Source: Actinophytocola gossypii (GTDB lineage Bacteria; Actinomycetota; Actinomycetes; Mycobacteriales; Pseudonocardiaceae). Taken from it: DNA of 64,000 nt. Where the stretch lies: contig NZ_JAFFZE010000022.1 of assembly GCF_025165815.1 (NCBI RefSeq), forward strand, positions 1-64,000, in the 5' to 3' direction. A program made the position numbers and the translations under genes. How positions within the stretch are numbered: the first letter of the stretch is position 1; each line of letters starts with the position of its first letter. Positions 3,714-52,969 of the stretch are shown piece after piece. A model generated the notes under the pieces. The model saw only the letters and a program-made list of their open reading frames with translations. It was not told where the DNA came from and searched no databases.

Positions 3714-3810
3714 ACCGGCCCCGATTGTGGGTCGAACGACCGTCACGGCCCTGCGCGCGCGCCCCTACCTTGCGATTACGGGGAACCACACCAACAGGGA
3801 GAACGCCCAA

Positions 3811-4317
3811 ATGGACGGATTCCAAGTAAAGACCGACGCCTTGGAAGAAGCCGCCACGAAGTTCGACGGGCTGGCGGGGGTTGTGGGCAGCGCGAAGAAC
3901 AAGCTCGCCAGCGACGGTGACCTGCCGACCCTCGACCCGCTGTCGAGGGCGATGGCCGCCGCCGCGGCCGTCGCCGGGGGCCTTGCCAGTGGTGGTCTCC
4001 TCACGCCACTGGCCGGGCTCGCCGGGAAGAAGGTGGGCGAGGCCGCGTCCGGGGCGAGCGACCCCTACCCCGGTGTCCGTGACGCCTGGTTGAACGCGCT
4101 TCCCCGCTACCAGCGGATGCTCAACCGCGACGCCGACGAACTTCGCAAGTCCTCGACGACCTACGAGGAGGACGACCGGCGGGGCGGGCAGCGTTTCCGG
4201 CATCCGATGCCCCGGGTGCCCGGTGCGCCAGCCGGTCCCATGCCGCGGGTGCCGGGTTCACCGACCGTGCCGATGCCGGCGCCGAACCCGAATCCCAACG
4301 GCAACGTACCGATCTGA
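3811..4317 (+). CDS. ESX/WXG100-like protein with Pro-rich tail
   Basis: A 168-residue protein starting MDGFQVKTDALEEAATKFD, like WXG100-type ESX substrates (helical start, small residues). A Gly/Ala-rich hydrophobic stretch (about residues 48-80), a short helix with RDAWLNALPRYQRML, and a Pro/Arg-rich low-complexity tail with repeated MPRVPG follow. No signal peptide. ATG 3811 follows AGGGAG; a -10-like TACCTT lies near 3766. It is first of three co-directional genes ending with a YbaB-like protein, an arrangement common next to ESX substrates in this order. Exact function unknown. Confidence 0.75.
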   Translation: MDGFQVKTDALEEAATKFDGLAGVVGSAKNKLASDGDLPTLDPLSRAMAAAAAVAGGLASGGLLTPLAGLAGKKVGEAASGASDPYPGVRDAWLNALPRYQRMLNRDADELRKSSTTYEEDDRRGGQRFRHPMPRVPGAPAGPMPRVPGSPTVPMPAPNPNPNGNVPI

Positions 4318-4344
4318 CCGGCGACTGACCGAAGGGGAGACGAC

Positions 4345-4962
4345 ATGGCACCGATAGCGGTGACCCATCCACACGAGATCTGGAACCTGGGGAGCGTGCT
4401 CGGGGCGTTCTTCGAGAAGGTCGGCATCAACCCGGAGTTCAAGAACTTCTTCGATCTCATGCCGCAGGTGGACCTGGACGAGATCCGGCGCGTCGGCAAC
4501 GACGTGTGGGGATTCGACTTCGAGAAGCCCGGCGCGGTCTCCGGCGCGCTCGACCGCGTGGGCAACGACCTCGTCTGGATCGTCGACGACCTCGAAGAGG
4601 ACTGGAAGGACAGCGAGGCCAAGCACAGGTTCACCAAGCACATCGAGATCGACAAGAAGCACTACAAGCAGGCGGCCGCCACCGCCCAGAACGTCGGCCA
4701 GGCGCTGGTGGGCTTCGCCAACGCGGCGGACGAATCTGTGGCCGACAAGCTGGGCGCCCTCATCGGGGTCACCGGAGCGATCGTCGGCGCGGCACTCGGT
4801 TTCGTGTTCGGAGGAGGCGTCGGCGCGATCCCGGGTGCGCTGGTCGGGTTGGCGGTCGGCGTCATGTTCACCTACTTCAGCGTGCTGATCCCCAAGGTCG
4901 CCAGCGCGCTCCAGGAGATCCACGACCTCGGAAACCAGATGCCGCCAGGTCACGACGCCTGA
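4345..4962 (+). CDS. ESX-associated hypothetical protein with Gly-rich hydrophobic domain
   Basis: A 205-residue protein. Residues 1-130 are polar and helical (IDDLEEDWKDSE and HIEIDKKHYKQAAATAQNVG), and residues 137-180 form a Gly/Ala-rich hydrophobic hairpin resembling the glycine-zipper membrane segments of secreted effectors. There is no catalytic motif or signal peptide. ATG 4345 follows AAGGGGAGA. Together with 3811 and 4995 it forms a probable operon. Its soluble helical half and glycine-zipper hairpin would suit a type VII substrate that inserts in membranes, but I do not recognise a named family. Confidence 0.65.
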   Translation: MAPIAVTHPHEIWNLGSVLGAFFEKVGINPEFKNFFDLMPQVDLDEIRRVGNDVWGFDFEKPGAVSGALDRVGNDLVWIVDDLEEDWKDSEAKHRFTKHIEIDKKHYKQAAATAQNVGQALVGFANAADESVADKLGALIGVTGAIVGAALGFVFGGGVGAIPGALVGLAVGVMFTYFSVLIPKVASALQEIHDLGNQMPPGHDA

Positions 4963-48870: not shown

Positions 48871-48893
48871 TTGTCGGTGTCATGCGCCAGTGT
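48871..48893 (+). promoter_or_regulatory. PafBC-type (RecA-NDp-like) DNA-damage promoter of recQ
   Basis: TTGTCGGTG at 48871-48879, an 8-base spacer and CAGTGT at 48888-48893 match the mycobacterial LexA-independent damage promoter TTGTCRGTG-N8-TANNNT except for the first base of the -10. The expected start is 48900-48901, the first base of the recQ GTG, so the mRNA would be leaderless. Confidence 0.75.
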
Positions 48894-48900
48894 GGAGGGC

Positions 48901-51009
48901 GTGGATCAGCAAGCCCTCCGAACCTCAGCCGAACACCGCCTCCGCGCCCTCGCCGGCGACGAGGCGTCCCTCCGCGACGACCAGTGGACCGCCATCGAGG
49001 CGCTGGTCGTCGACCGCGCGCGTGCCCTCGTGGTGCAGCGCACGGGGTGGGGCAAGTCCGCCGTCTACTTCGTGGCGACCGCGCTGTTACGCGAACTCGG
49101 CCGGGGCCCGACGGTGATCGTCTCGCCGCTGCTCGCGTTGATGCGCAACCAGATCGAGGCGGCGGGTCGGGCCGGGGTCCGGGCGGCCACGATCAACTCG
49201 GCCAACCTCGACCAGTGGCACGAGGTGCAGGACGATGTCCTGGCCGGGCGGATCGACGTGTTACTGGTCAGCCCGGAACGGCTCAACAACCCGGAGTTCC
49301 GCGACACGGTCCTGCCGGAACTGACCGCGAGCGCAGGGATGCTCGTGGTCGACGAGGCGCACTGCATCTCCGACTGGGGTCACGACTTCCGACCCGACTA
49401 CCGGCGGCTGCGCAGCCTGCTCGGCACCCTGCCGGCCGGGGTGCCCGTGCTCGCGACCACGGCCACCGCGAACGACCGGGTGGTCCGCGACGTCACCGAG
49501 CAACTCGGACTCGGTGGTCGGGACACGGTGGTGCTGCGTGGCGAGCTCGACCGGGAGAGCCTGCACCTTGGCGTGCTGCGGCTGCCGACAGCGCAGGCCA
49601 GGTTCGCCTGGCTGGCGGAGCATCTCGACGAGTTGCCCGGCTCGGGGATCATCTACACGCTGACGGTGGCCGCGGCACACGAGGTGTCGTCGTTCCTGCG
49701 CGACCGCGGGTACTCGGTGGACGCGTACTCGGGCAGGACCGATCCGGCCGAGCGGGAACGCGTCGAGCAGGACCTGCTGGGCAACCGGATCAAGGCGGTG
49801 GCCGCGACGTCGGCCCTGGGGATGGGTTTCGACAAGCCGGACCTCGGCTTCGTGATCCATCTGGGAGCGCCGTCCTCTCCGATCGCGTACTACCAGCAGA
49901 TCGGTCGCGCGGGTCGCGGCGTGCGCCGGGCCGAGGTGTTACTCCTGCCGGGCACCGAGGACCAGGACATCTGGGCGTACTTCGCCTCGCTGGCCTTCCC
50001 GGCCGAACGGGTGGTCCGGCGCGTGCTGGACGTACTGGCCGAAGCGGATCGTCCACTGTCCACGGCGGCGATCGAGCCCTCGTGCGACCTGTCCCGCAGT
50101 CGGCTGGACATGGTGCTGAAGGTGCTGGACGTGGACGGTGCGGTCCAACGGGTCAAGGGCGGCTGGATCGCCACCGGCCAGGGCTGGGACTACGACGCGG
50201 ATCGGTACCAGGGCATCGCCGGCGCGAGGAAGTCCGAACAACAGGCCATGCGCGAGTACCAGCGGACGGACCAGTGCCGGATGGAGTACCTGCTCCGCCA
50301 ACTCGACGCGCCGAACGTGGCGGCGTGTGGTCGGTGCGACAACTGTGCCGGAGCGCGATGGAGCGCGGAGGTCTCGGAGGCGCATGTCGTCGCCGCCCAA
50401 CGGCTCTTGCATCGGCCGGGCGTGGAGATCGGCGAACGTCGCATGTGGCCGAGCGGTATGGCCGCGCTCGACGTTCCGTTGTCCGGAAAGGTCGGTGCCG
50501 GTGAGCGCGCGGAGCCGGGCCGCGCACTCGGGCGGCTCACCGACATCGGCTGGGGCAACCGTTTGCGCGAGCTGTTCGCACCGGGCGTCGAGCACGCCGA
50601 CGGGCCGGTCCCCGACGACCTGGTCGATGGCTGTGTGCGGGTGCTGGCGTCGTGGGAGTGGGCGGAGCGTCCGGTCGGCGTGGTGACGGTGGGATCGACC
50701 AGCAGACCGAAGCTGGTGGCGAGCTTGGGCGAGCGGATCTCCTCGATCGGCCGGCTGCCCCTGCTGGGCGGGATCGACGTCCGACCGGCGGGTGAGCGAC
50801 AAGCGAACAGTGCACGCCGGTTGGCACAGGTGTGGCGGTCACTTCGGATCAGTCCCGAACTGGCCGACCGCTTATCCGGTGTGGACGGTCCGGTGCTGCT
50901 CGTCGACGACCGGGTGGACACGGGCTGGACCATGACCGTGGCGGCCAGGTTGGTGCGCGAGGCCGGCGCACCAGCGGTCCTGCCGTTCGCTCTCGCCACC
51001 ACGACCTGA
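48901..51009 (+). CDS. RecQ-family helicase fused to a phosphoribosyltransferase-like domain
   Basis: A 702-residue protein. Helicase motifs: RTGWGKSAV (Walker A, 47-55), [21 protein letters not shown], and [11 protein letters not shown] with [11 protein letters not shown] (motif VI). A zinc-binding part has CGRCDNC. The C-terminal third ends with [15 protein letters not shown] (from 665), the PRPP-binding motif of phosphoribosyltransferases. It unwinds 3'-5'; the added domain may sense or use PRPP/nucleotides. GTG 48901 is preferred over TTG 48871, because the latter lies in the -35 of the damage promoter. Standalone gene. Confidence 0.9.
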
Positions 51010-51838
51010 CCACTCGGCTCACCCGAACACTCACACGTGGAAAGGAGGTACCAACTTTCGATCAGATCACAGCGCCCCGCACAAGACGTGCCTTCGCCGG
51101 AGCACTCGTCCATGTGCTCGACCGGAAGTCGGGCTCCGGAGCAAGGTGACGAACTCGGAGTAGCGCTCGCCCGCGGCGACTTCGGGCACGCCCTTCCGCC
51201 GGGCTCGGAGCCCGGCTCGGATGCGAGCCGGACCGACGAACTCTGCCGGACCGGATTCACCGACCGAATTCGCCAACCGGATTCACCGACCGAGTTCGCC
51301 CACCGATTTCGCCGACCGAGTCGCCCACCGAGTTCGCCCACCCAGTTCGCCCACCCAGTTCGCCGACCGAGTTCGCCCACCGGATTCACTGACCGGATTC
51401 GCCCACCGAGTTCGCCCCACCGAGTTCGCCCCACCGAGTTCGCCGAGCCGGCCCGGCTCAACCGGACGCGTCCGCCGGGACAGCCAGGCAACCGGGGCGA
51501 CCAAACTCAGCCAGAGAGTTCGGCCTGCCGGTTCGACGGTCGGGCTCGCTGTCACCTCGGCCGGCAACCGGAGCCGATCAGCCCGGTGCGGGCGGGTTCG
51601 GGCAGCCGCAGCCAGCCAGAGCACGGCCAGCCCGACTGGTTGGGCGCAGTGCTCGGACTCGACCAGTGGGGCTCGGTCAGTGGACTTGGCTGGCGATGTC
51701 GGCCACCCAATCCCGCTCGGTCGGGTTGGGCGTAGGAGTACGGCGAGCCAGCACGGGTGGCACGCGGACATGGAACTCGGGGGCAGCGACGCCCTGACCG
51801 AACGGGAAAGGAGGTAATCGCGCTCCGACAAGTGTGAG
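51010..51838. other. Non-coding region with minisatellite between recQ and proB
   Basis: This 829-bp stretch lies between two converging genes. It includes the tandem repeat at 51247-51446 and two copies of GGAAAGGAGGT (AAAGGAGGT at 51041-51049 and 51807-51815), perfect matches to the 16S anti-Shine-Dalgarno complement, neither followed by a start codon at ribosome-site distance. Long frames exist on both strands but are unconvincing: the repeat shifts frame from unit to unit. No promoter or terminator was identified. Confidence 0.6.
51247..51446. repeat. 13-bp tandem repeat array (about 15 units)
   Basis: Consensus CACCGAGTTCGCC. About fifteen units of 12-14 bp run head to tail with variants GGATTCAC, GATTTCGCC and CCCAGTTCGCC. 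There are no spacers, so this is not CRISPR. Unit lengths are not multiples of three, hence no constant peptide. Each unit carries GTTCG or ATTC, giving lower GC than the flanks. Confidence 0.85.
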
Positions 51839-52969
51839 TCAGTGGCGGAGTGGGACCAGGTCGTCGGCGTGGACGACTTCGCGGCGATGTTCCGGCGCGA
51901 GGTCGTGGCTCTTACGGCCGATGAGCATCGGCAGCTCGGCGGCGTCGTAGGCGACGACTCCCCTGGCGACGACATGGTCACGGCTGTCGGACAGCTCGAC
52001 GACGTCACCGGCTTCGAACTCGCCGTGCACGGCGGTGATGCCGGCGGCCAGAAGCGAGCGGCGGCGGCCGACCACCGCGGCCACGGCACCGTCGTCGAGT
52101 CGCAGGCGGCCCTTGGGGTTGGCGGCGTAGGCGAGCCAGAACCGCCTCGGGGTCAGCCTGCGTGGGCTGGCGGCGAACGCGGTACCGACGTCGGCCACGC
52201 CCAAAGCGTGGGCCGCGTCGCTCGCGGCGGCGATCAGGACCGGTACGCCGGCGGTCGAGGCGAGCCGGGCCGAGGCCAGCTTCGAGGCCATGCCGCCGGT
52301 GCCCAGGTCGGAACCGGGCTCGTCGGCGCGGACATGTTCGACATCGGCATCGCCGGCCACTTCGTCGATGCGGTGGGCGTCACCGCGACGGGGGTCGCCG
52401 TCGTACAGACCATCGACATCGGAAAGGAGGACCAGCGCGTCAGCACCAACCAAATACGCGACCATTGCCGCCAGGCGGTCGTTGTCGCCGAACTTGATCT
52501 CCTCGGTGACCACGGTGTCGTTCTCGTTGACCACGGGCACGACACCGAGGGCCAGTAGCCGCGACAGGGTGCGTTGCGCATTGCGATAGTGCGCGCGCCG
52601 CACCACGTCGTCCGAGGTGAGGAGGACCTGGCCCACCCGCAGGTCGTAGCGGGCGAACGACGACACGTACGCGTGGCCGAGCACGAGCTGGCCGACGCTC
52701 GCGGACGCCTGCTGCGTGGCGAGATCATGTGGCCGGCGGCCGAGACCCAACGGCGCCAGTCCCGAGGCGATCGCACCGGAGGACACCAGGACGACCTGGC
52801 TACCGGCGGTACGACGCGCCGCGAGTGCGTCGACCAGGGCATCGAGCCGTGCTGGGTCGAGGCCGCCCTGCGCGGTGGTCAGCGACGACGAGCCGACCTT
52901 GACCACCACGCGCGGCGCCGCGGCGATGCGCGACCGCGTGTCGGACAGGAGCGCGCCCCGCTCGGTCAC
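51839..52969 (-). CDS. proB: Glutamate 5-kinase
   Basis: A 376-residue enzyme phosphorylating glutamate in proline synthesis. The amino acid kinase domain (1-265) begins [11 protein letters not shown] and includes [19 protein letters not shown] and [15 protein letters not shown]; the C-terminal PUA domain (280-376) has [17 protein letters not shown] 52969 overlaps the obg stop (GTGA). proA is not adjacent; the recQ/minisatellite segment follows instead. Confidence 0.96.

Follow-up and report, generated by a model that had tools for sequence, protein, structure and literature searches.

A single-copy minisatellite and a rare 12-bp direct repeat in the probably lengthened convergent spacer between recQ and proB

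Introduction

Non-coding satellites with short units have been described in a survey of prokaryotic genomes, among them those of Streptomyces, Amycolatopsis and Mycobacterium (PMC6749651). Such arrays have units of 10-200 nt in tandem, with at least four copies, and are intergenic and unique in the genome. A somewhat different arrangement is BrickBuilt of Porphyromonas gingivalis, a MITE with a minisatellite, where the intergenic array is part of a longer segment that has short repeats on its flanks; BrickBuilt is present in 19 copies per genome and has inverted-repeat ends (PMC4596501).

Here we analyze a window of 64,000 nucleotides taken from an actinobacterial genome of 7.4 Mb (53 contigs), with the focus on the spacer between converging recQ and proB. 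This spacer has 829 bp without genes (51010-51838) and carries a tandem array. The array shares all the listed properties of the short-unit satellites, but it is more degenerate than a young array and is situated in a convergent spacer with a 12-bp direct repeat as its bounds. As in BrickBuilt, short repeats flank a longer segment in which the array is embedded; unlike BrickBuilt, the segment is single-copy and the repeat is direct. A repeat search detected no clear pair of terminal inverted repeats at the ends of 51051-51804. By the copy-number test the segment is not a MITE, since several copies are required and a single one was found. The perfect 12-bp direct repeat that bounds the segment is a candidate target-site duplication; no empty allele was seen.

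Results

The spacer and the 13-bp array

Matches to Pfam and TIGR profiles, along with the gene strands, confirmed that recQ and proB converge, as the first-pass annotation of this DNA had stated (Table 1). The best-matching named relatives of the RecQ-family helicase were mostly from Pseudonocardiaceae. The C terminus of this helicase (residues 669-704) resembles the PRPP-binding part of phosphoribosyl transferases, with a partial match to TIGR01251.

Table 1. Coordinates of the features of the recQ-proB locus within the window
Feature	Position	Strand	Remarks
RecQ-family helicase gene	48871-51009	+	Left convergent neighbour; Pfam DEAD and Helicase_C; TIGR00614 above cut-off
Left arm ACTCACACGTG of candidate split hairpin	51029-51039	+	10/11 complementary to 51829-51839; stem test
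Left copy of 12-bp direct repeat GGAAAGGAGGTA	51039-51050	+	Shine-Dalgarno-like, without start codon
Candidate gained segment	51051-51816		766 bp with one of the two repeat copies; neither gene nor homolog found
C>G bubble spanning the array	51156-51538	+	Rut-like on the recQ strand; rank 136 of 39452 bubbles in the sample
Two adjoining GC-rich hairpins	51197-51230	+	Possible recQ terminator without U tract; local folding
Degenerate tandem array, ~15 units of 13 bp	51250-51446		Consensus ACCGAGTTCGCCC; TRF score 183-215
Right copy of 12-bp direct repeat GGAAAGGAGGTA	51805-51816	+	Shine-Dalgarno-like, without start codon
Right arm CAAGTGTGAGT of candidate split hairpin	51829-51839	+	Last base is the first of the proB stop
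proB, glutamate 5-kinase	51839-52969	-	Right convergent neighbour; TIGR01027 407.7 bits, cut-off 186

TRF found an array with period 13 (also 26 and 39), 14.9 copies and an 80% match, starting at 51250 and ending at 51444 or 51446. Among 1000 dinucleotide-shuffled spacers the best TRF score was 69, compared to 215 observed. The initial count of about 15 degenerate 13-bp units was, therefore, accurate. A gene caller built on the codon usage of this genome predicted no gene in the spacer and coding codon usage was seen in no frame; open frames across the array do exist, none of them with a Pfam family match. The length of the unit, 13 bp, is not divisible by three. We concur with the earlier view that the array is non-coding; a repeat protein finds no support.

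The array has head-to-tail units of at least 10 nt in at least four copies, exceeds chance and is situated outside protein-coding genes; it is a real non-coding minisatellite in a lineage-specific spacer, of a kind already known. It is also single-copy. The genome-wide count of the unit that the first-pass annotation had called for revealed no second copy of the array or of the 13-bp unit across the genome. A candidate at C7:129760 was a chance match overlapping long ORFs, with no tandem array present. Outside the array, four GAGTTC/GAACTC motifs were found in ~0.63 kb of spacer, compared to 0.84 per kb in a sample of the genome. One canonical G-quadruplex motif was inside the array on the minus strand (start 51356); the density of such motifs in the genome sample was 0.15 per kb. 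In the same sample arrays were carried by 6 of the 36 convergent spacers and by 10 of the 334 other spacers. All base rates come from an 864-kb sample of this genome processed with a home-made gene caller.

The Shine-Dalgarno-like words

The word GGAAAGGAGGT is exact at 51039-51049 and 51805-51815, and at both places it extends to the perfect 12-bp direct repeat GGAAAGGAGGTA. At ribosome-binding distance (~5-12 nt) after either copy there is no ATG, GTG or TTG, hence neither has the downstream start codon of a ribosome-binding site. The first GTG past the right copy starts 17 nt beyond GGAGG and is followed by TGA at once. The description of the pair as orphan perfect Shine-Dalgarno sequences is, therefore, literally true, and so is the remark that on the minus strand the flanks are anti-Shine-Dalgarno-like (they read ACCTCCTTTCC).

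On the other hand, this genome does not place the extended Shine-Dalgarno motif before genes, and a 12-bp direct repeat is therefore the better description. In the whole 7.4-Mb genome GGAAAGGAGGT occurs three times, never before a gene, and two of these occurrences bound the recQ-proB spacer; the third one comes after the stop codon of a gene, ahead of a GC-rich inverted repeat, with no start downstream. For none of the 773 called genes in the 864-kb sample was AAAGGAGG found upstream. In several relatives, GGAAAGGAGGT does precede ATG. The word can be a ribosome site there, but it is not so used in this genome, and the Shine-Dalgarno label misleads. Perfect-looking Shine-Dalgarno words should be checked against the usage of the genome itself before they are read as ribosome sites.

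Two copies of GGAAAGGAGGT in one spacer appeared in 1 of 5000 shuffled spacers, while perfect 12-mer repeats arose in ~4% of shuffles of the non-array spacer. Of the 125 intergenic regions of at least 200 bp in the sample, the recQ-proB spacer was the sole one whose flanking direct repeat exceeded 10 bp.

A separate word, AAAGGAGGT, had four occurrences in 7.4 Mb. Its reversed control had ten, so this Shine-Dalgarno word of full complementarity seems to be avoided in the genome.

The same spacer in relatives

The recQ-proB junction is hypervariable in relatives; its length ranges between 24 bp and over 5 kb, and it contains zero to several accessory genes. An MHS-type MFS transporter is often found in the gap and a flavoprotein in one genome (G005), and recQ faces proB in many relatives. 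Unrelated small arrays reside in the recQ-proB spacer of several other genera, e.g. with units of 14, 18, 21 and 30 bp. For example, in a genome of another genus (locus L031 of G008) the spacer at ~3780-4690 has 21-bp arrays of the GACGTTGTGTCATGCGCTCCC type at both ends, in opposite orientation.

In the five congeners, each represented by one genome per species, the array was absent from the equivalent spacer. In the tree of RecQ and ProB, made from these two proteins and showing long branches, G002 is the sister of the genome under study and G004 is the next branch, both at 92/95 support. The spacer has 78 bp in G002, where it makes a clear hairpin, and 42 bp in G004, where the hairpin is weaker. 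Since both the sister and the next branch have short spacers, the short spacer is likely ancestral for the three genomes and the 766 bp were likely gained in the lineage studied here.

Searches for plasmid and phage matches to the spacer found none, and such an origin of the segment was set aside. DNA matches of 51543-51636 and of other pieces were located in unrelated coding sequences of several genomes and are GC-rich chance matches.

We also considered whether proA had been displaced from the recQ-proB gap. In this genome its best match (C17:6935-8092) is on a contig other than that of proB and, judged by their first residues, the genes seen in the gap in relatives included no recognisable proA. 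In all six genomes of the genus the best proA matches had ~190-205 bits, below the TIGR00407 cut-off of 317, and none adjoins proB.

Origin of the long spacer

These data are best read as a compact convergent spacer that underwent an insertion or expansion specific to this lineage. In the scenario we favour, a gene-free segment of ~766 bp bounded by GGAAAGGAGGTA would have been gained inside a convergent recQ-proB spacer of ~63 bp, and the gain probably broke a bidirectional hairpin terminator, ACTCACACGTG...CAAGTGTGAGT. The 13-bp unit would have grown by replication slippage within the segment or together with it, and later degenerated. The Shine-Dalgarno-like words would be a direct repeat that formerly made the loop and inner stem of the hairpin, rather than ribosome starts. 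As a whole, this scenario has in our estimate a probability of about 0.48.

With one repeat copy and the intervening DNA removed, the outer flanks join into a 63-bp spacer, similar in length to those of the two nearest relatives, in which ACTCACACGTG and CAAGTGTGAGT are close enough to pair. For the joined spacer the folding energy is -23.2 kcal/mol, with z = -2.4 for the plus strand and z = -0.95 for the minus strand. Its perfect stem of 8 bp was matched in 108 of 5000 pairs of shuffled flanks. The stem-loop that the joined flanks would form, like those of the compact spacers in G002 and G021, resembles the bidirectional hairpin terminators of convergent genes, but the present arms are ~800 bp apart.

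The rarity of GGAAAGGAGGT and the sole long flanking repeat among the sampled regions argue for an insertion, as do the array with no second copy or congener counterpart and the higher frequency of arrays in convergent spacers. Against it, no intact 63-bp allele was seen among the genomes compared, one per species. The segment has no transposase, is single-copy and shows host-like composition, so no mover was identified. Moreover, chance produces 12-mer repeats at the rate given above, and the hairpin signal is modest, being weak on the minus strand. Of the three ideas in the first-pass annotation, an insertion scar has the most support; the added suggestion that proB was split from its usual neighbours fails, because proB and obg still overlap and, in many relatives, recQ and proB face each other.

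The spacer could instead have grown little by little, through slippage and drift; it would then have no function, and the pairing of the 12-bp word would be a coincidence rather than the trace of one insertion event. We regard this as less likely, even though the hypervariable junction with its unrelated short arrays in several genera, the host-like composition and the GAGTTC/GAACTC motifs outside the array, as if the unit had spread locally, all fit it: a word with three copies in the genome has two of them here, each near one end of the spacer, and the outer flanks are complementary. That one insertion event, and not stepwise growth, lies behind the 766 bp is our inference. The accessory genes in the recQ-proB gap of many relatives, and the relatives in which GGAAAGGAGGT precedes ATG, could suggest that the spacer holds the remains of one or more genes whose lost starts are the Shine-Dalgarno-like words. 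However, codon usage is non-coding throughout and neither word has a start or a frame after it. Comparison of six-frame spacer translations with related loci, and of 7524 ORFs of these loci with the spacer, gave one match only, at chance level; a decayed gene is thus very improbable. We give equally little credence to an as yet undescribed type of non-autonomous element, which would target the hairpin terminators of convergent genes, make a 12-bp duplication and bring a repeat-built Rho-loading array in place of the broken terminator. The change of the recQ-proB spacer is largely ordinary genome turnover, and the locus is a tree-placed example of how a compact convergent spacer can turn long and repeat-bearing in a GC-rich actinobacterium.

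Possible roles of the array

Rut sites have been described by C>G bubbles that exceed 78 nt and by YC or C at a spacing of 9-13 nt (PMC9160355, PMC6407284), and the array has both. It is C-rich and G-poor on the recQ strand, behind the recQ stop codon, within a bubble of 383 nt, and it has eight YC dimers in exact 13-nt steps, equalled by 2 of 2000 random segments. Rho is encoded in the genome, and no U-tract terminator was found. A selected rut site that recruits Rho and keeps recQ transcripts from continuing antisense into proB would account for these features, yet they follow automatically from a C-rich 13-bp repeat. The large bubbles in the sample are mostly in genes or antisense to them, and neither strand nor presence is conserved, as relatives have the larger bubble on the proB strand or none. 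We consider selection for this role improbable; the array may be a passive Rho loading site, which is a possible effect rather than an established function. Should Rho indeed load there, the locus would be an example from nature of a terminator built by slippage. The Rho RNA-binding domain was found in two ORFs, at C49:407594-407821 and C49:327729-327920 (L261, L262), one with a long frame (686 aa) and one a short Rho-like protein of 357 aa.

The first-pass annotation had also offered a repeat-borne RNA and a protein-binding array. The units are regular and could bind a regulator, the ends of a minus-strand transcript would carry the anti-Shine-Dalgarno-like ACCUCCUUU, and the whole plus strand of the spacer folds better than 20 shuffles (z = -4.4). 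The array itself is not more stable than its shuffles (z = -0.69) and has no homolog in the related loci; neither the conserved nor the unusually stable structure of a structured small RNA was observed. The Rfam search gave only sub-threshold matches, none near the threshold, and a search for sigma-70 type promoters detected no promoter-like site. The unit and its flanks are not conserved in relatives; the unit occurs nowhere else in the genome, which argues against a regulon site. A small RNA, like a repeat protein, is unsupported at this spacer, and we deem either an RNA or a protein-binding role of the array highly unlikely.

A dispersed 22-bp repeat family

A separate intergenic family of tandem repeats is dispersed in this genome, with a 22-bp unit of approximately CGCGAGTCGTACGTTCC[CG]GTCG and 221 matches at no more than one mismatch, compared to none in the five congeners. 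Examples are at C28:102225-102263, C28:246555-246637, C28:340550-340738, C28:361217-361579 and C4:133111-133171. For long units, dispersed families of non-coding satellites are reported to be rare in prokaryotes (PMC6749651). The 22-bp family looks more interesting than the recQ-proB array. Some of its arrays flip orientation internally, and in convergent gaps they reach within 3-13 bp of both genes.
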